Of a stretch of DNA of 35,076 nt, positions 1,889 to 23,730 are shown in pieces. A model generated the notes under the pieces. That model did no database searches and was not told the origin of the DNA. It saw only the letters and a program-made list of their open reading frames with translations. This DNA is from Natronohydrobacter sp. (GTDB taxonomy: Bacteria > Pseudomonadota > Alphaproteobacteria > Rhodobacterales > Rhodobacteraceae): NCBI GenBank assembly GCA_007118445.1, contig SKRP01000072.1, positions 1 through 35,076 on the forward strand, in the 5' to 3' direction. How positions within the stretch are numbered: position 1 is the stretch's first letter; each line of letters starts with the position of its first letter. The position numbers were made by a program, and so were the translations under genes.

Positions 1889-2015
1889 GGGCGCGAACTC
1901 CGGGAATTAAAGGATCTGTTAACCATTACCGACTAGTCTTAACCCGAAGTCCTGTCGGGTGAACAGCCGCGTCATGGGCTGCTTGACTGTAATCCAGCGC
2001 CAGGGGGCCGCACTG

Positions 2016-3401
2016 ATGCCGAATCGCATTCTTGTCGTGGATGATCTCTCGCTCAGCCGGGTCATCCTGCGCGCGCGCCTGTCGTCGGCCTGCTATGACA
2101 TATTGCTGGCCGCGACCGGGCAACAGGCGCTGAGTATCGCCCGCGCGGAACTGCCTGATCTGGTGCTGCTGGATTGCTCGCTGCCCGATCTGGACGGGTT
2201 CGAGATCTGCAAGGCCCTGCGCCGCGCGCCGGAAACCGCGCATATTCCGGTGATCCTGTTTTCGGCCACCAATACGCGCGACCGGCGCTTGCAGGCGCTG
2301 GAATGCGGTGCCGATGATTTCCTTGGCAAACCCCTGGATGAAGGCATCCTGCTGTCGCGCCTGCGCGCCCTGCTGCGCTGCAGGGCGCTGGAACGCGAGC
2401 ATCACAAACAGGCCACACCCGCGCTGCGCGCCTCATTGGCCGCATCCTTTCTGGCCGGTGCCCCTGCCGGACGCGTCTGTCTGGTGCAGCCAGACCCCGC
2501 GCCCGGACAGACGCAGACGCAGATCGACCCCAGTCTCCATGATCTGCGCTGCGACCTGACTTCGGCCCTGAAACCGGCGAGTAGCGCAACGGTGCCGGAT
2601 ATTTTCCTGCTTGCGCCCGAAGTGCTCGACCAACATGGGCTTGCCATCATCTCGGAATTCCATTCGCGCCCGCTGACACGCCATGTGCCGATCACAGTGC
2701 TGCTGGCACCGGACCAACAGATCGACCCCGGCATGGTCATGGATCTGGGGGCAGAATGCGTTCTGTCGCTGCCGCTTGATCTGACCGAGGCGCAGATGCG
2801 GCTCGGGGCGATGATCCAGCGAAAACGATGGGCGGATGCGCTGCGCCATGCGATGGGGACCGAACTGGATCTGGCTTCGCGCGATCCGTTGACGGGGTTG
2901 TTCAACCGCCGTCATGCACTGTCGTATCTTGCAGAGATCGTCAGCGACCAGAGCACACGGCATTTCGCGCTGCTGATGATTGATCTCGACAATTTCAAGC
3001 AGGTCAATGACAAATTCGGCCATCTTGTGGGGGACCAGGTACTGACCGAAGTCGCCGCACGCATGGCCGCTGCGATCCGGCCCGATGATCTGCTGGCACG
3101 CTATGGCGGCGAAGAGTTCCTGCTGGTCCTGCCCGGCATCGATCTCGAACACGCGCAGCGCATGGCGGAACGGCTGCGCCGCCAGATCGAAGGCGCGGAA
3201 TACAGGATCTCGCAAGGGGGCGGGCGTTTGCGCATGACGGCCTCGATCGGGGTCACAATGCATGATTGCGCAGCGTATGAGCCGATCGAAACAGTGCGCG
3301 CGCGTATTCAGGTGATCATCAATCAGGCTGATCAGGCGCTGCATGTCGCGAAGAACTCGGGGCGCAACCGTGTAGCCCTCGCCTGCCGTGCGGTCGCTTG
3401 A
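2016..3401 (+). CDS. pleD: PleD-like response regulator diguanylate cyclase (REC, degenerate second REC, GGDEF)
   Basis: N-terminal receiver (ILVVDDLSLSRVILRARL...PDLVLLDCSLPDLDGFEICKALR...DDFLGKPLDEG), a weak second receiver-like region, and a GGDEF domain (DPLTGLFNRRHAL...LLMIDLDNFKQVNDKFGH...ARYGGEEFLLVLPG) with an RPDD I-site five residues upstream of GGEEF. Start chosen at MPNRILVVDD. Confidence 0.9.
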   Translation: MPNRILVVDDLSLSRVILRARLSSACYDILLAATGQQALSIARAELPDLVLLDCSLPDLDGFEICKALRRAPETAHIPVILFSATNTRDRRLQALECGADDFLGKPLDEGILLSRLRALLRCRALEREHHKQATPALRASLAASFLAGAPAGRVCLVQPDPAPGQTQTQIDPSLHDLRCDLTSALKPASSATVPDIFLLAPEVLDQHGLAIISEFHSRPLTRHVPITVLLAPDQQIDPGMVMDLGAECVLSLPLDLTEAQMRLGAMIQRKRWADALRHAMGTELDLASRDPLTGLFNRRHALSYLAEIVSDQSTRHFALLMIDLDNFKQVNDKFGHLVGDQVLTEVAARMAAAIRPDDLLARYGGEEFLLVLPGIDLEHAQRMAERLRRQIEGAEYRISQGGGRLRMTASIGVTMHDCAAYEPIETVRARIQVIINQADQALHVAKNSGRNRVALACRAVA

Positions 3402-3425: not shown

Positions 3426-3923
3426 TCAGTTGCTGCGCGCTTGCCCGTCCCGGCCCTGCCAGCGGCGCTTGCTCATCTGCTCCTGCAGGGCATCGGCATA
3501 GGATCGGCGCTCTTCTGCGCTCATGGCGCTGACACGCGTGATCAAGCGCGCGTGCATCTCGGTGCTGATCTGCACGAAACGATCCTGCGCCTGTTGCAGG
3601 CTGTCGCCAAACGCATCGGCATCAAATTCTTCCGCCTGCAAGACCGCGATCATGTCTTGCGCCGCAGACCTGCCCCCGGACCCGCCCCCGGACCCGCCGC
3701 GCATGTCGCGCCAGATCGCGCGGGTTTCGCGGCGCAGCGCACGGCGATCGTCGCTTGGCAGCGCCGAAACCGCCGCGCGCAAGACGGATCCCTGATCGCC
3801 CGCGCGCAGGATGATCCCGCCGACCATGCCCAGCATGCCCAGATTGAGCACCAGTGATACGGCAAGCGCGGCCCCCAGCCAGCGGCAGCGCGATGTCACC
3901 TGTCTTTCTGCCATGTCTTTCAC
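3426..3923 (-). CDS. Periplasmic heavy-metal sensor/resistance (CnrX/Spy-like Metal_resist) protein with N-terminal membrane anchor
   Basis: 165 aa: N-terminal TM (WLGAALAVSLVLNLGMLGMVGGIIL), then a helical region with SDDRRALRRETRAIWRDMR and AEEFDADAFGDSLQQAQDRFVQISTEMHARLITRVSAMSAEERRSYADAL. Overlaps the upstream ORF by 4 nt. Confidence 0.75.
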   Translation of the reverse strand: MKDMAERQVTSRCRWLGAALAVSLVLNLGMLGMVGGIILRAGDQGSVLRAAVSALPSDDRRALRRETRAIWRDMRGGSGGGSGGRSAAQDMIAVLQAEEFDADAFGDSLQQAQDRFVQISTEMHARLITRVSAMSAEERRSYADALQEQMSKRRWQGRDGQARSN

Positions 3924-4300
3924 ATCCCCAGAAGCAATGGATCATCCGGCCAGATCAGTGGCAGGGCAATCACATCAACATGCCAGAGCGCCTCGTGCAT
4001 CCAGCCCGGCATGTCCAGTGCCATCAGCGGCAGCGGCGTGACGAACCCCAGCCAAAGCCCGGCGAGCCCGGCGCTCACCCCTGCGGCCAGCCCTGGCAAG
4101 GTCCAGCCCGAAACCCGGTGCCACAGCGCCCTCGGGCGTGATGGCGCTGCCCTGTCCGCGGCCCGGACCGCGCTGTCAAGGATACGCGCGCGCAGGTCAG
4201 GCGGCACAACCGGGGCTTCCGCGCGGGCGGCCTCGAAGAACACGGCCAGCGGATCGGGCGCTTGCGGGCCATGCGGCTTCGGATCGGATTTGTCAGACAT
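3920..4300 (-). CDS. Single-TM putative anti-sigma factor
   Basis: MSDKSDPKPHGPQAPDPLAVFFEAARAEAPVVPPDLRARILDSA... then one TM (LPGLAAGVSAGLAGLWLGFV) and a short periplasmic tail; overlaps the ECF sigma gene by 8 nt. Confidence 0.65.
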   Translation of the reverse strand: MSDKSDPKPHGPQAPDPLAVFFEAARAEAPVVPPDLRARILDSAVRAADRAAPSRPRALWHRVSGWTLPGLAAGVSAGLAGLWLGFVTPLPLMALDMPGWMHEALWHVDVIALPLIWPDDPLLLGM

Positions 4301-4871
4301 CGTCATCATACCCCAATGCTGCGCGCTCACCGGCCAGAATCGCCGCAAGCCGCCGTTTTCCCCGCGCTGTCAGGCTTTCCACGGCCTCGACCCCGACCAT
4401 CATGATCGCGGCGATTTCGGGATTGCCCAGCCCTTCCAGATGACGCAGCACCACGGCCTCGCGCTGCCGTTCGGGCAGTTGCAGCAAGGCCAGCTCCAGC
4501 GCCTGCGCACGCGCCGCACGCATCATCTGCGCATCCTGCCCGGCGGCCGGATCGGGCAGATCGGGCAATTCGGGCAGCATCGGTCTGCGGCGGCGCAGCC
4601 GGTCAGTGCAGAGATTGGCCGCCACCCGGTAAACCCAGGTCGAAGGCGCGGCCTGACCGGGCACCCAGTCCGGGGCCATTTTCCACAGTCGCAACATTGC
4701 TTCCTGCGTCACATCCTCGGCCTCTTCGCGATTGCCCAGCATCCGTGCCGCATAGCGCAGGATGCGCGGTGCGATCAGGTCGGTCAGCGCACGCGCCGCA
4801 GCCTGATCGCCCGCGACGACCTGTGCCAGCAGAACCGATTGTTCGCTGCTCTCGCTCACCTCTCGCAGCAC
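4293..4871 (-). CDS. ECF-type RNA polymerase sigma factor
   Basis: Sigma2: ALTDLIAPRILRYAARMLGNREEAEDVTQEAMLRLWKMAP...STWVYRVAANLCTDRLRRRR; sigma4: ALLQLPERQREAVVLRHLEGLGNPEIAAIMMVGVEAVESLTARGKRRL. Probable GTG start at 4871 or 4859. Confidence 0.9.
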   Translation of the reverse strand: MLREVSESSEQSVLLAQVVAGDQAAARALTDLIAPRILRYAARMLGNREEAEDVTQEAMLRLWKMAPDWVPGQAAPSTWVYRVAANLCTDRLRRRRPMLPELPDLPDPAAGQDAQMMRAARAQALELALLQLPERQREAVVLRHLEGLGNPEIAAIMMVGVEAVESLTARGKRRLAAILAGERAALGYDDDV

Positions 4872-4923
4872 TGTTCTGCCCCTGCTCGTGGCAGGACGGG
4901 CCTGAACCCGTCCTGCGCAGTTC

Positions 4924-5400
4924 TCAGCGCATCCGCGACCGCTCCATACCGCGCCTGTCCATACCGCGTCTGTCCATGCCGCGCCGTTCCATACGCCCTG
5001 CAGACCGGTTAAGAAAGGCTTCATACTCTTCCGCCGAGATCACCCCATCCGAATTGGCATCGATCCGTCCGAACATCCGGGCCTGCATAGACGCACGCCG
5101 CGCCTCGCGGCGCTCTTCTGCGTAGGCCGTCAGGCCATTGCGCAACGCGTCCTCATCCAGCTTGCCATCGGCATCTGCCTCCTGCATCAGCCGGGCAACC
5201 ATCTGCTCGCGCTGCGCCGCGCGCGGATCCTCCAGTGCAGCCTGAAACTCTTCCAGGGTCACGACACCGCTGCCATCTGTATCCAATGCCTCGAAGCCGG
5301 GCCACATGGCAGCCCCTTGCCCCGGTCCACGCGCTTCCGCCATGACGGGCAGCATCAGCACGGCGCAGGCCGCAAGCGTCATCTGAAACTTCTGGGTCAT
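4924..5400 (-). CDS. Secreted/periplasmic EF-hand protein
   Basis: Signal peptide MTQKFQMTLAACAVLMLPVMAEARG; EF-hand loops DTDGSGVVTLEEF and DANSDGVISAEEY, plus a degenerate DADGKLDEDAL; Met/Arg-rich repeat tail. Confidence 0.88.
   Translation of the reverse strand: MTQKFQMTLAACAVLMLPVMAEARGPGQGAAMWPGFEALDTDGSGVVTLEEFQAALEDPRAAQREQMVARLMQEADADGKLDEDALRNGLTAYAEERREARRASMQARMFGRIDANSDGVISAEEYEAFLNRSAGRMERRGMDRRGMDRRGMERSRMR
4936..4995 (-). repeat. 15-bp tandem repeat encoding the RRGM(D/E) pentapeptide tail
   Basis: Four 15-bp units ending in tccatacc/tccatgcc/tccatacg, encoding MERRGMDRRGMDRRGMERS. Confidence 0.85.
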
Positions 5401-5578
5401 CTCTTGTCTCCTGTTATCTGGGGGCCTGTTCGCCCCGGACATGACATCAAACGCCGGACCGGCCGGTTTCCGTCGCAGGACTGCGCGGAATCATGCGGCA
5501 TGGTGCCGCAAATTCGACTTCGCGGATGTCATTTTTGGCAGATGGGCTTATGCCGGTTACAGTAGCCGGAAGGACCAT

Positions 5579-5995
5579 ATGATGACGATCTCCAACGATA
5601 TCGAGCGCGGTGCGGTGCTGGATGAACGGCCTCTCGGGCCGGCTGTGTTGCGCGGGCTGCGTTGCAAATGCCCGGCCTGTGGCGCAGGACCGATGCTGCA
5701 CAGCTTTCTGAAGGTCAGAGATACCTGTCCGGCCTGCGGTGAGGATCTCAGCCATCAGCGCGCCGATGATGGCCCGGCCTATCTGACAATGCTGGTTACC
5801 TTGAAAATCGTCACGCCGCTGATGGTATCCGCGATGTTCGTCTGGGATATGCACCCGGCGCTGTTATTTGCGATCTTTGCAACCTTTCTGGTGGCGCTTT
5901 CGCTATTCCTTCTACCTCGGTTCAAGGGCATGATCGTGGCGTTCCAATGGTCACGCCGGATGCATGGATTCGAGGAAACGAATGCCCAACTCTGA
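5579..5995 (+). CDS. DUF983 family membrane protein
   Basis: MMTISNDIERGAVLDERPLGPAVLRGLRCKCPACGAGPMLHSFLKVRDTCPACGEDLSHQRADDGPAYLT... with two CPAC motifs and two TM segments. Confidence 0.88.
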   Translation: MMTISNDIERGAVLDERPLGPAVLRGLRCKCPACGAGPMLHSFLKVRDTCPACGEDLSHQRADDGPAYLTMLVTLKIVTPLMVSAMFVWDMHPALLFAIFATFLVALSLFLLPRFKGMIVAFQWSRRMHGFEETNAQL

Positions 5996-18191: not shown

Positions 18192-18671
18192 TTATTGCGG
18201 GCGCAACAGAAACTCTGCCCGCACCTGACCGGGCTGATCGCCCCGACGCAGACTCAACTGCGCCAGATCATAACCCGTGCCGCGCTCGAAGGCTTCGAGC
18301 CAGGGCATGAGAATCACGAACTCCACCTCTTCCAGCAGCACGGCGATTCCGCCCCCGGTCGCAGTGGAGAGCGCGGCCGAAAGCCCGGCCTCCTGCAGGC
18401 TTGCATCAATCGCGCTCAGACCCGGCAAAGGCCGATCCGCGCGCGTGTCGGCCGGTGGCAACGCTGCCAGTTCCGCGCGCCGCGCCTCGAGCCAGCGCTC
18501 CAGCGCCTGCGCCTCGAGCAGGGCCTGGCGCGACGCGCTTTCGCGCGTCTCAAGCGGAACGATCACGCCGTGATACCATCCCAGCGGCAGCCCGACCACC
18601 AGCAACAGCGCCAGCAACCAGCGTTCGCGGCGCGTGCGCGCCAGCACGAAACGTTCCAGAGCCCCGGTCAT
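18192..18671 (-). CDS. gspM: Type II secretion system protein M
   Basis: Short protein with N-terminal TM (RERWLLALLLVVGLPLGWYHGVIVPL), follows gspL with 4-nt overlap; C-terminal LSLRRGDQPGQVRAEFLLRPQ. Confidence 0.82.
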   Translation of the reverse strand: MTGALERFVLARTRRERWLLALLLVVGLPLGWYHGVIVPLETRESASRQALLEAQALERWLEARRAELAALPPADTRADRPLPGLSAIDASLQEAGLSAALSTATGGGIAVLLEEVEFVILMPWLEAFERGTGYDLAQLSLRRGDQPGQVRAEFLLRPQ

Positions 18672-19948
18672 GGTCCGTCCCCGGCTGCAGCGGCCGCGCG
18701 CAGGGTCAGCGTGCCCAGAACCCGCCCTGCCCCCTCGCTGGCAGACCGGTCCAGCGCGACCGCCAGACCAGCGCTTTCCAGTTCCGACAGCAAGGCTTCC
18801 AGAATGCCGAAATCCGGACTGGTGAGTTCGACCACCACCGACATATCCCCCTGCAGCTGCATCGATTGCAGGTCAATATCGGCCTCGGCCATCGCCGCGC
18901 TGGCACGCCACATCACGTCCAGCGCCGAAAGTTCCGCACCGGGGTCCTGCATCAGGGCTGCACGTCGTTCATCGATCACGCGCGCGACCTGCAACTCGAT
19001 ATTGGGCAAGGGCCCGTCCGGCAGGAAATATTGCCGCGTCAGCGCGATATTGCGGTCCTGGCGGGCTTGCAATTCGGCTTCCAGCTGGTGCGTCTCGAAG
19101 AGCACACCGCCCGCCCAGACCAGCCCGGCCAGCACGAAAAGCAGTGCAGGCAGCATCAACGCGCGGATGCGCGCGCGCAGCGCCATGCGCGGATCGGCCT
19201 GCTGCTGACGCAGATCCAGTGCCAGTTCTCCATAAGCCAGCACACGCGGTGCGGCGATATCAGGCGGCAGATCAGCCGCATCGCGCGCGATCACCAGCCC
19301 CGGCAGCTGATCCTGCAGACGCGCGAGCGCAGCATCAATCGCAGGATGGGCAGGACCAAGCCGCAACACTGCGCGCGGCGCAGTCGCATCGCTCAGCGCG
19401 GGCTGCAGGGCCAGCGCGGCGAGTTCCGGCTCGGCGCTCAGCCCGTCCCCTGGACCCAGCCGGATCTGGACAACCCCATCCGGGGCCGTGCCGGTCTGAA
19501 CTGTCCACAGCCCAGGGCTGGTCGGCAGGGCCAGATAATCCGGCAGGATCGCCTGCAGCTTTCGGCCCAGATCGGCAGTTGCGCTGCGCCAGGCCTGCAG
19601 ATCCTCTGACCGGGCCAGCAGCAGCGTCTGCCATTGCCCGCCCTCTGAATCCAGCGGCGCGGGGCGCAGATCGACCTGCTGCGTGCCAAGCCCCAGCCGG
19701 TCGCGGACATCGCGCGCGGCCACGCGCAGCCGCGCGTCACCGCGCAGCGCAGGCGGCAGATCAAGTGGCACCAGCGGCACCAGCGCGCCCGGCACCAGCA
19801 CCACGACCGGGCCATCCGGCAAAGGTGTCGCGCCATGCAGCGACCAGAAGGACACAGGCGCAGCAACGGCGCTGCGGCGCCAGCCCCTGCGCCAGCCGAA
19901 CGCGCCCGCCGAAGCGGCTGGAAGCGGCGATGTCAGGGCAGCGGTCAT
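18668..19948 (-). CDS. gspL: Type II secretion system protein L
   Basis: Cytoplasmic actin-like N-half (VVVLVPGALVPLVPLDLPPALRGDARLRVAARDVRDRLGLGTQQVDL), TM, periplasmic C-domain; syntenic between gspK and gspM. Confidence 0.85.
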   Translation of the reverse strand: MTAALTSPLPAASAGAFGWRRGWRRSAVAAPVSFWSLHGATPLPDGPVVVLVPGALVPLVPLDLPPALRGDARLRVAARDVRDRLGLGTQQVDLRPAPLDSEGGQWQTLLLARSEDLQAWRSATADLGRKLQAILPDYLALPTSPGLWTVQTGTAPDGVVQIRLGPGDGLSAEPELAALALQPALSDATAPRAVLRLGPAHPAIDAALARLQDQLPGLVIARDAADLPPDIAAPRVLAYGELALDLRQQQADPRMALRARIRALMLPALLFVLAGLVWAGGVLFETHQLEAELQARQDRNIALTRQYFLPDGPLPNIELQVARVIDERRAALMQDPGAELSALDVMWRASAAMAEADIDLQSMQLQGDMSVVVELTSPDFGILEALLSELESAGLAVALDRSASEGAGRVLGTLTLRAAAAAGDGP

Positions 19949-20880
19949 CACTCGGACTCCGGCATGGACAGGACCACCGTGCAACAGGCAGCAGGGTTTG
20001 CGCGTCTGACGATCACTTTCCGCCTCAGGCGCAGCGTGTCAAGCCGTGCATCGAGCTGCAGCTCGAACCAGCCGGAGGTGATGCTCAGCCCGAACAACTC
20101 GACCCGGTCAAACGCCGCTTCGCCGACACTGTCCTCGAACCAGTCCAGCGCCTGCCCGAGATCCGTGAAGGGCCGCGCCGCCTCGAGCATGCGCGCCATA
20201 TTGGCCGCGCTCACCCCCGGCAGAAAGGCGGCCAGCACTTCCGGGCGCACGGTGTTCAGGTTCATCATCTGCTCCTCCGGCAAGGCCGCCACATAGGGCG
20301 CGAGGGCAGTGATATCCGCATCGCTCAGCCCCTCGATCAGGCGCAACTGCGCGATATCGGTCAAGGGCAGCGGCGGCGGGCGGGTCGCGCGACCCCAGGC
20401 CGTGACCCGCTGGCCCAGATCGGGATCAAGCGCCTGCATCAGCCTGCGGCGCGTCGTCGCGGACAGGCCGATATCCTGCGTCAGCTGGCCAAATGCCTCG
20501 CGCGCCAGCGCCCGTAAAAGGGCGTCAGAATCCTCATCAAATTCCGTGCCCAGCCAGGCCAGATTGAACCGCCCCTGCAGATCGCTGATCTGCAGGCTGA
20601 CAACGCCCTGATCAATCGGTTCATCGCGGTAGCCCTGCGCCCAGCCCTGCCCGGTATGGGTCGCCGCCTCCGCGCCCGGTGCTTGCGTCAGCAATTGCAG
20701 TCCCAGAAGCTGCGCCGCGTCCAGATAGGCCGCCGCCTGCCCGGCCTCGGTCATGCCCGCCAGCCGCTGGCGGGCCGCATCGCTGCGCAGCATCAACCCG
20801 ACCGCAATCGCCGAGAGTCCCGCCACCAGCACCAGCGCATTGATCAGCGCCACCCCGCGCGGCCCGCCCCCGCGCCTCAT
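19948..20880 (-). CDS. gspK: Type II secretion minor pseudopilin K
   Basis: GVALINALVLVAGLSAIAVGLMLRSD prepilin-type N-terminus; LNTVRPEVLAAFLPGVSAANMARML region; syntenic. Confidence 0.9.
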   Translation of the reverse strand: MRRGGGPRGVALINALVLVAGLSAIAVGLMLRSDAARQRLAGMTEAGQAAAYLDAAQLLGLQLLTQAPGAEAATHTGQGWAQGYRDEPIDQGVVSLQISDLQGRFNLAWLGTEFDEDSDALLRALAREAFGQLTQDIGLSATTRRRLMQALDPDLGQRVTAWGRATRPPPLPLTDIAQLRLIEGLSDADITALAPYVAALPEEQMMNLNTVRPEVLAAFLPGVSAANMARMLEAARPFTDLGQALDWFEDSVGEAAFDRVELFGLSITSGWFELQLDARLDTLRLRRKVIVRRANPAACCTVVLSMPESE

Positions 20881-21455
20881 GGGCTCACCACCAGGCGCAG
20901 GGGGCCATGGCGGCGGGTCTCGAAGGTCACCTCGATCTGCCGTGGCAGGGTTTCGCTGGTCTCGGGGGGCGTGACCTCGAAGCTGGTCACACCTTCAAGC
21001 AACACGATATCGGGGCCGCGCTGGCCCGGGTCGCGCGGATGCAGCACTGGCCAGATGCCCCGCGAGAGGGTTTCCGCCTGCGCATCGAATTGCCAGATCA
21101 CCCGCTGGAACCCGTCCTCGCGCCGGGCGTCGCCCGCAAGCCGCATCTGGCCGCCAAGGCTGAGCGCGAGTGTGTTGCCGGAGGGCGCGTAGGCCGCTTC
21201 CTGCCCACCCAGCGGCGGGGTAAAGGGCAGCGGCACCAGACTGTCCAGATCCGCCCGCAGCAGGGCCATCAGACGCATCAGCGCCGCGCTGTCGCCGGTC
21301 TGCTGCTCGAGCACGCGGCGCTGATGCACGGCCCCGGTCAGAACCTGCAGCGACATGACGGCCACCAGCGAAAACAGCGCCAGCGCGACCATCAGCTCCA
21401 GCAAGGTGAATCCAGGCGGGGCATGGCGCGCGGCATGGCTCGGGTCCCGGCTCAT
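20877..21455 (-). CDS. gspJ: Type II secretion minor pseudopilin J
   Basis: APPGFTLLELMVALALFSLVAVMSLQVLTGAVHQRRVLEQQT...; 4-nt overlaps with neighbours. Confidence 0.92.
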   Translation of the reverse strand: MSRDPSHAARHAPPGFTLLELMVALALFSLVAVMSLQVLTGAVHQRRVLEQQTGDSAALMRLMALLRADLDSLVPLPFTPPLGGQEAAYAPSGNTLALSLGGQMRLAGDARREDGFQRVIWQFDAQAETLSRGIWPVLHPRDPGQRGPDIVLLEGVTSFEVTPPETSETLPRQIEVTFETRRHGPLRLVVSP

Positions 21456-21835
21456 GGCGCTGCCGCCAGATAGATCACCAGCCGCGCGCCGGGCAGGTCG
21501 GTGGCGGAGACCGTGATCGCAACCTCGACCAGATTGCCAGCGGTCGGGGCCTCGTCCAGCCGGATCGCCCAGTCATAGGGGCCCATCCGGCGCTGGTCCG
21601 GCAGCGCGCGTCCATCAGTCAGACCCAGCGCGCGCAGCTCGGCGGCATGGTTCAGCGCCACCTGATGCGCCAGCCCGCGCGCCAGCACGCCCTGCGCCTG
21701 CTGACCGGCCTGCTCGAAGCTGCGAAAGGCAGCAAGGCTGGCCACGGACAGAATGGTGATGGCAATCGCCAGTTCGATAAGCGTCATCCCGGCAGGCGCA
21801 CGCTTTCGCGCAGGCGTTTTCGCAGGCGCGCTCAT
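21452..21835 (-). CDS. gspI: Type II secretion minor pseudopilin I
   Basis: AGMTLIELAIAITILSVASLAAFRSFEQ... prepilin N-methylation motif. Confidence 0.9.
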   Translation of the reverse strand: MSAPAKTPARKRAPAGMTLIELAIAITILSVASLAAFRSFEQAGQQAQGVLARGLAHQVALNHAAELRALGLTDGRALPDQRRMGPYDWAIRLDEAPTAGNLVEVAITVSATDLPGARLVIYLAAAP

Positions 21836-22926: not shown

Positions 22927-23730
22927 GTGAGCGCCGCGATGGGGACGCCAGAGGCCGAGCTTGTCCGGGCTGTGCTGATCCTCGCGCTCGGCGCACCGAT
23001 GGGGTCTTTCGCAGCGCTGCTCGCGGACCGTCTGCCGCGCGGGCGTCCCGTGGCCCTGACCCGCTCATGCTGCGACAGCTGCCAGACCCCTCTGCGCTGG
23101 TTCGAGCTGATCCCGATCCTGTCCTGGCTGGCCCTGCGCGGGCGCTGCAGAAGCTGCGCAGCGCCGATCCCGGCGCGGCTCTGGCAGGCCGAACTGGCCG
23201 GGCTGGCGCTGGCCGGGCTGGCGCTCTGGTCCGGGCTGGGGCTGTGGGGGGCGGCGCTCTTCTGGTGCCTGCTTGCACTGATCCTGTCCGATCTGCGATT
23301 CTATCGCTTGCCCGACCTGCTGACCGGCAGCCTGTTCGCGCTGGCCTGCGCAGCAGCTTTCTGGCCCGAGGGCCCGGGCGGGCCGACAGACCCTGCCAGA
23401 GTGCTGCAGGCATTGGCCGGGGGCGCGGTCGGGGCCGGGATGTTCTGGGCGCTGGCCCGCGCCTACCGGCTCTGGCGTGGTCATGACGGGATGGGGGCTG
23501 GCGATATCCGGCTGATGGCCGGGCTGGGTGCCATGATCGTCCCGCTGGCTGGCTGGCAGGGGCTGGCGCTGGTGACGCTGATCGCGGGCTTGAGCGGGCT
23601 GGCGCTGGGCCTGATGCGCGCGCTGCGCCGGGGCCGTAACCTGCGCCGCCGGGTGCGCCTGCCTTTCGGTGCCTGTCTGGGCAATGCGGCCATTTTCGTG
23701 GCAGCGGGTGCCGCTCTGGGGCTGATCTGA
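22927..23730 (+). CDS. gspO: Prepilin peptidase (A24 family)
   Basis: Two CxxC pairs (CDSCQTPL, CRSCAAPI), catalytic-Asp regions SDLRFYRLPD and GMGAGDIRLMAGLG, multiple TM segments; divergent from gspG. Confidence 0.93.
   Translation: MSAAMGTPEAELVRAVLILALGAPMGSFAALLADRLPRGRPVALTRSCCDSCQTPLRWFELIPILSWLALRGRCRSCAAPIPARLWQAELAGLALAGLALWSGLGLWGAALFWCLLALILSDLRFYRLPDLLTGSLFALACAAAFWPEGPGGPTDPARVLQALAGGAVGAGMFWALARAYRLWRGHDGMGAGDIRLMAGLGAMIVPLAGWQGLALVTLIAGLSGLALGLMRALRRGRNLRRRVRLPFGACLGNAAIFVAAGAALGLI

Follow-up and report, generated by a model that had tools for sequence, protein, structure and literature searches.

An EF-hand, ECF sigma, putative anti-sigma and Metal_resist gene cassette of Natronohydrobacter sp.: a probable trans-envelope stress switch with a predicted efflux regulon

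What do four neighbouring genes encoding a secreted EF-hand protein, an ECF sigma factor, a single-transmembrane (TM) protein and a Metal_resist protein respond to, and what do they control? The genes follow one another on the minus strand of a 35,076-nucleotide stretch of Natronohydrobacter sp. DNA (contig SKRP01000072.1, positions 1 to 35,076), here referred to as the window. A sequence-only reading of the window had compared the row with the CnrYXH circuit of Cupriavidus. We report gene order and its conservation, folds and families, a promoter motif and recurrent target genes, all computed directly, and we consider it probable that the cassette is an autoregulated trans-envelope stress switch that resembles CnrYXH in design and has RND and ABC export as its output. 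The features of the locus are as follows.

5493-5511, minus strand: inverted repeat TTGCGGCACCATGCCGCAT upstream of the promoter, a possible operator
5450-5475, minus strand: predicted ECF promoter of the cassette, CGACGGAA-N14-CGTT (-35/-10), from its invariance in the genus
4924-5400, minus strand: first cassette gene, secreted CaBP-like EF-hand protein, 158 aa (Pfam EF-hand matches)
4891-4916, minus strand: intercistronic hairpin GCAGGACGGG-TTCAGG-CCCGTCCTGC in the gap between the EF-hand and sigma genes (folding energy)
4293-4871, minus strand: SigV-like ECF sigma factor, 192 aa, GTG start (Sigma70_r2/r4_2, NF009176)
3920-4309, minus strand: putative anti-sigma factor (ASF), single-TM, 129 aa, or 126 aa if the ATG at 4300 is the start (overlap with the sigma stop)
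3426-3923, minus strand: putative membrane-anchored sensor of the Metal_resist/CpxP-CnrX fold (MR), 165 aa, or 162 aa if the ATG at 3914 is the start (PF13801)

All four genes of the row proposed earlier are present at these positions. For the last three genes, the overlaps described earlier (8 and 4 nt) depend on the start codons chosen: the sigma and ASF genes overlap by 8 nt if ASF starts at 4300 but by 17 nt if it starts at 4309, and the ASF and MR genes overlap by 4 nt if MR starts at the GTG at 3923, while the ATG at 3914 lies 5 nt past the ASF stop. The tight sigma-ASF-MR spacing was found again throughout the genus of the window, and overlaps and spacing suggest that the cassette may be co-transcribed. 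On the plus strand, a divergent gene for a small CxxC membrane protein (5441-5995; DUF983-like by eye) has its upstream region in common with the cassette, and a receiver-GGDEF gene (1959-3401; PleD-like, with a GGEEF motif, by eye) converges on it, approximately 25 nt from the MR stop.

The window sigma has 29 orthologues in the genus (62-83% identity; Roseibaca sp. is among the genomes), and wherever the contigs extend far enough, every one of the 30 genus loci keeps the order EF-hand, sigma, ASF, MR. The EF-hand orthologue lies directly upstream of the sigma gene in 30/30, which bears out its earlier description as a member of the cassette. A search for co-occurring EF-hand, ECF and Metal_resist genes, proposed earlier as a check, recovered the order beyond the genus as well. 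In a scan of named genomes it was present in approximately 40 other Rhodobacteraceae loci (Ruegeria, Shimia, Phaeobacter, Leisingera, Sagittula, Roseivivax and others), and neither an EF-hand nor an MR gene accompanied the sigma in 27 more distant ECF loci of that scan. The arrangement EF-hand, sigma, any gene, MR was found in Hyphomonas, Henriciella, Hirschia, a Sphingomonas-like strain, Magnetococcales, Micavibrio and a Lysobacterales bin. In Caulobacteraceae the row is present in most of 30 loci (EF-hand gene detected in 22/30), and profile comparison with hhalign supported homology for both ASF (probability 96.7, E 4e-10) and MR (probability 99.6, E 7e-24). Across the class the sigma was found at E<=1e-30 in 81 of 289 sampled genomes, and the best 30 of these loci include an EF-hand gene in 22 cases, ASF in 24 and MR in 28. 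The ASF profile matched only 5/289 genomes because ASF diverges fast, and sigma-anchored searches took its place. Judged by this conservation, the four-gene row occurs far more often than chance would predict, and the cassette is best regarded as ancient and widely conserved in Alphaproteobacteria, not as a local oddity.

The sigma is an ECF factor, having Sigma70 region 2 (PF04542, 72.3 bits) and region 4 (PF08281, 51.1 bits) without region 3 (TIGR02937, 97.5 vs 42.9); with NF009176/PRK12524 it scores 263.9 bits against a cutoff of 264. Comparison with PDB chains (SigW 83 bits, SigE 82, CnrH 55) suggests that it is not specially close to CnrH. It belongs to an abundant, uncharacterised alphaproteobacterial type, which the predictions below tie to a conserved RND efflux pump.

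The ASF is characterised by a conserved N-terminal helix, LDxLFAxARxxxPxPSxxLxARxLADA, and a TM motif, GGW..GL..A..AG.WIG. In its AF2 model (mean pLDDT 75) two cytosolic helices (18-28 and 35-51) precede a single TM helix (56-87) and a short periplasmic tail. The same anatomy of short cytosolic helices, TM helix and periplasmic tail is that of class II CnrY (PMC7406223). No Pfam family matched ASF, the NCBIfam anti-sigma model NF052375 gave a weak score (17.9 bits vs a cutoff of 100), and among the anti-sigma factors of known structure in the PDB its profile matched none significantly. On the modelled CnrY-like helix anatomy, the TM protein is likely an anti-sigma factor.

The assignment of the 165-aa protein to Metal_resist, for which an HMM check had been suggested, was upheld (PF13801, 33.6 bits vs a gathering cutoff of 29.2), and 47/47 MR homologues match the family as well (E<=0.01). 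The AF2 model of MR (pLDDT 84) consists of one TM helix followed by a helical hairpin. Its profile matched CpxP (E 5.7e-5), NccX (0.002), CnrX (0.02) and Spy (0.03) among PDB entries, and with Foldseek the nearest folds were CpxP, CnrX, Spy and ZraP, none being significant by E-value. The MR periplasmic domain thus resembles CpxP and Spy in fold and sequence, with CpxP as the best PDB match; it differs from them in that MR is membrane-anchored and is encoded beside a sigma and its putative anti-sigma rather than beside a two-component system.

Upstream of the EF-hand gene, GCGACGGAA and CGTT at a spacing of 14 nt are invariant in 30/30 genus loci, and the sequence of the spacer varies. GGAA-N14-CGTT occurs once in the window, at the cassette promoter (5475 to 5450, minus strand), and it is also found ahead of the EF-hand gene in most other Rhodobacteraceae, as well as in the Magnetococcales and Lysobacterales loci. 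Moreover, a near-perfect repeat, TTGCGNC-N5-GNCGCAA, is present in most genus cassettes, 15-16 nt upstream of the -35 element (27-30 nt in one subclade); other genome-wide matches were not recurrent and the site is cassette-specific. RegA/PrrA was considered as its regulator on account of a likeness to GCG inverted repeats and was rejected, given that ChIP work yields no strong PrrA consensus and that the site is specific to the cassette. The position of the palindrome upstream of the promoter suggests a second input. The GC-rich hairpin between the EF-hand and sigma genes (-26.8 kcal/mol; z about -3 with mononucleotide shuffles) has comparable counterparts in roughly half of the genus loci. 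It has no T-run and was not called as an intrinsic terminator by a terminator scan; it could set EF-hand protein and sigma to different levels.

A promoter motif shared by the region upstream of 5400 and sites elsewhere, sought on the advice of the sequence-only reading, was found. Searches with CGACGGAA-N14-CGTT in 37 genus genomes, with the downstream genes read, gave 52 matches outside the cassette, of which only 4 were left unassigned. The motif precedes an RND periplasmic adaptor gene in 23 genomes (mostly 88-100 nt from the start codon), a YbbA-type ABC ATPase gene in 13 (113 nt), cytochrome b561 in 6, TolC in 3 and DUF4395 in 3. In the window's own genome it stands before the RND adaptor and YbbA genes, both on other contigs. 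The adaptor (TIGR01730, 133 bits vs 94.9) is followed by an RND permease, and the YbbA gene by an FtsX-like permease with a TesA-like esterase gene divergent (names by eye). Outside the genus, GACGGAA-N13-15-CGT was found 84-129 nt upstream of the adaptor orthologue in 19/29 other genera. Of the exact matches sampled across the wider family, most precede genes that are not in the five target families; with 12 fixed bases a share of these is expected by chance, and control patterns gave about half as many. On the strength of the shared motif, the regulated output, listed earlier as unknown, can now be predicted to be an RND efflux pump together with other envelope exporters.

In three other Rhodobacteraceae genera (L266, L277 and L279; position 1500) CGACGGAA-N14-CGTT also stands before an rpoH-like sigma gene, and a link from the cassette sigma to a heat-shock sigma is possible.

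Four genus genomes (G003, G008, G014 and G016) lack both the sigma and MR. In G008 and G014 the adaptor -35 reads GCGCCGCAA in place of GCGACGGAA; this element shares bases with the final codons of the gene before it (LRRK-stop), where the change is synonymous. In G016 the -35 is GCGGCGGAA and the -10 is broken, and in G003, an 86% complete assembly, the cassette is absent and the adaptor motif kept. Among the scored genomes with a cassette, CGACGGAA is kept at the adaptor in 28/29, the exception being G033 with a one-base -35 change. Loss of the cassette and loss of the adaptor motif coincide (Fisher p = 0.003, with kinship ignored among few, related genomes).

For the binding of the sigma by the TM protein, for sensing and its signal, and for transcription itself, we infer the following course. 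The TM protein would hold the sigma at the inner membrane, its two N-terminal helices clamping the sigma as CnrY clamps CnrH, and the anchored CpxP/CnrX-fold MR would read the short periplasmic tail of ASF. An envelope or cation disturbance would free the sigma, which would recognise GCGACGGAA-N14-CGTT and so amplify its own operon, including the EF-hand protein, likely a secreted Ca2+-binding co-sensor or buffer in the periplasm. The sigma would also switch on the RND adaptor-permease pair and the YbbA-type ABC exporter and, in some species, the TolC, cytochrome b561 and DUF4395 genes.

The EF-hand protein matches EF-hand_5 (52.7 bits, cutoff 25.9), has by eye an N-terminal Sec-type signal peptide and includes two canonical loops, DTDGSGVVTLEE and DANSDGVISAEE. 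Four canonical loops are present in most genera outside that of the window, within which mostly one strictly canonical loop is kept. Two other identities were rejected: Pro2 in a canonical loop, as in lanmodulin, is found in 0/103 EF-hand proteins (NF053806, 22.5 vs 135 bits), and the match to the XopAW model (51.8 vs a cutoff of 120) reflects EF-hand similarity only. A Phaeobacter piscinae mutant that cannot make tropodithietic acid has less of an EF-hand pair protein, OL67_000906 (PMC9942592); this protein may be the EF-hand protein of the cassette and is a candidate only.

The closest known system is CaBP-SigV of Caulobacter vibrioides (CCNA_02838-CCNA_02837), where an EF-hand protein and a sigma regulate each other positively and act under Ca2+ limitation and acid, cabp being induced by EGTA and acid (PMC13171946, 2026). 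In both systems a secreted EF-hand gene lies directly upstream of an ECF sigma gene, and the mapped cabp promoter, GGAAA-13 nt-CGTTCA (PMC13171946), has the spacing of GGAA-N14-CGTT in the window. In Caulobacter, cabp and sigV are reported to have separate promoters and independent transcription (PMC13171946), so that a single operon is not assured for the window cassette. The window cassette differs in its two additional conserved genes and its predicted efflux regulon, the comparison resting on Caulobacteraceae loci and not on the C. vibrioides locus itself; a literature search with the locus tags of the genes downstream of sigV gave nothing beyond the CaBP paper. That paper, the only experimental report of an EF-hand/sigma pair that we found, leaves the anti-sigma and the membrane sensor unnamed (drawn as '?') and describes no wider regulon (PMC13171946). 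Our analysis proposes candidates for all three, together with a precise promoter signature, and by analogy ASF and MR are the obvious candidates for the missing membrane components of CaBP-SigV.

The EF-hand protein may be output only, a periplasmic Ca2+ buffer or envelope stabiliser, with MR as an envelope-stress sensor of the CpxP/Spy kind. We regard this as a real possibility, short of probable: the EF-hand gene is the first behind a sigma-type promoter, the hairpin that precedes the sigma gene in about half of the genus could favour high EF-hand expression, and CpxP is the solved structure that MR matches best, but in Caulobacter CaBP raises sigV expression (PMC13171946). More tentatively, the EF-hand protein could itself be the sensor, its Ca2+ loading in the periplasm deciding whether it contacts MR/ASF, and low Ca2+, or acid that strips Ca2+, turning the sigma on. 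Its place at the head of the cassette and its canonical loops, none of the lanmodulin type, are consistent with such a role, as are the response of cabp to EGTA and acid and the mutual reinforcement of CaBP and SigV (PMC13171946). Sigma-ASF-MR cassettes with no detected EF-hand gene (L082 from Rhizobium, L035, and several class-wide loci) argue that it is dispensable for the core switch, and the single strictly canonical loop of most window-genus proteins also speaks against it as sensor; L082 and L035 suggest that the core switch can exist without the EF-hand gene. Of the earlier proposal that the signal might be Ca2+ or another cation, the Ca2+ part is plausible but unproven, being suggested by the EF-hand loops here and by the CaBP-SigV work (PMC13171946); a transition metal as the default signal found no backing, the distal CnrX ligands for it being absent from MR. 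A fuller version, in which a Ca2+/pH-gated ECF system widespread in Alphaproteobacteria uses the EF-hand protein to tune a CpxP-fold sensor and anti-sigma, and loss of periplasmic Ca2+ induces the RND pump, is doubtful as a whole. If true, it would be a calcium-to-efflux signalling pathway with every component named.

CnrX binds transition metals through H42, H46, E63, H119 and M123. In a MAFFT alignment of 109 MR sequences with CnrX/NccX fragments, H42 and H46 were misplaced, making their placement unreliable, and only H119 and M123 were used; the MR residues at these positions are mostly A/Q/R and R/F, respectively, so neither ligand is kept. Neither His nor Cys attains 60% in any column, and Cys is absent from 100/109 sequences. 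It is accordingly improbable that the cassette is a true relative of CnrYXH and a heavy-metal (Ni/Co/Cu/Zn) circuit, with transition-metal binding by MR freeing the sigma to induce metal efflux. Such a circuit would agree with the Metal_resist membership of MR, with CnrX and NccX among its best structural and sequence matches, and with an RND pump as predicted output, as with CnrCBA (PMC9045368). However, the RND adaptor and permease score far below the metal-type CzcB and CusA/CzcA cutoffs, CpxP is a better match to MR than CnrX, and SigW and SigE are better matches to the sigma than CnrH. With the metal ligands missing and MR resembling CpxP, envelope stress or Ca2+/acid stress is therefore favoured over heavy metal. 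The analysis also suggests that the annotation 'periplasmic heavy metal sensor' is borne by many proteins that do not sense metals.

The earlier comparison with CnrYXH of Cupriavidus metallidurans thus stands for design and not for family membership. The cassette shares with CnrYXH and NccYXH an ECF sigma, a short membrane anti-sigma with two cytosolic helices, a membrane-anchored Metal_resist sensor and an RND efflux output, the last three as predictions in our case. It differs in gene order (Y-X-H vs EF-hand, sigma, ASF, MR, with the EF-hand gene as an extra member), in not conserving the distal metal ligands of CnrX, in a sigma without special closeness to CnrH, and in a predicted RND pump that is encoded elsewhere and falls outside the metal subfamily.

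Motifs of the general-stress sigma EcfG likewise contain GGAA and CGTT, in the form GGAAC-N16-17-CGTT. That the motif belongs to another such sigma, with the cassette as one of its targets, is nevertheless very improbable, for although Caulobacter cabp and sigV are reported to depend also on the general-stress sigma SigT (PMC13171946), the spacing here is N14 in 30/30 genus loci and the adaptor motif was lost in 3/4 genomes without the cassette.

Papers on rhizobial ECF sigma factors gave no matching system. The RpoE8 operon of Azospirillum brasilense (AMK58_24940-24950) encodes an ECF sigma, a hypothetical protein and a 'periplasmic heavy metal sensor' (PMC12826043); it resembles the cassette in gene types, by description only, is uncharacterised and has no EF-hand gene mentioned. 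Finally, elsewhere in the window a run of minor pseudopilin genes resembling those of type II secretion (18192-21835, minus strand) is listed with a prepilin-peptidase-like gene (22927-23730, plus strand), both named by eye.
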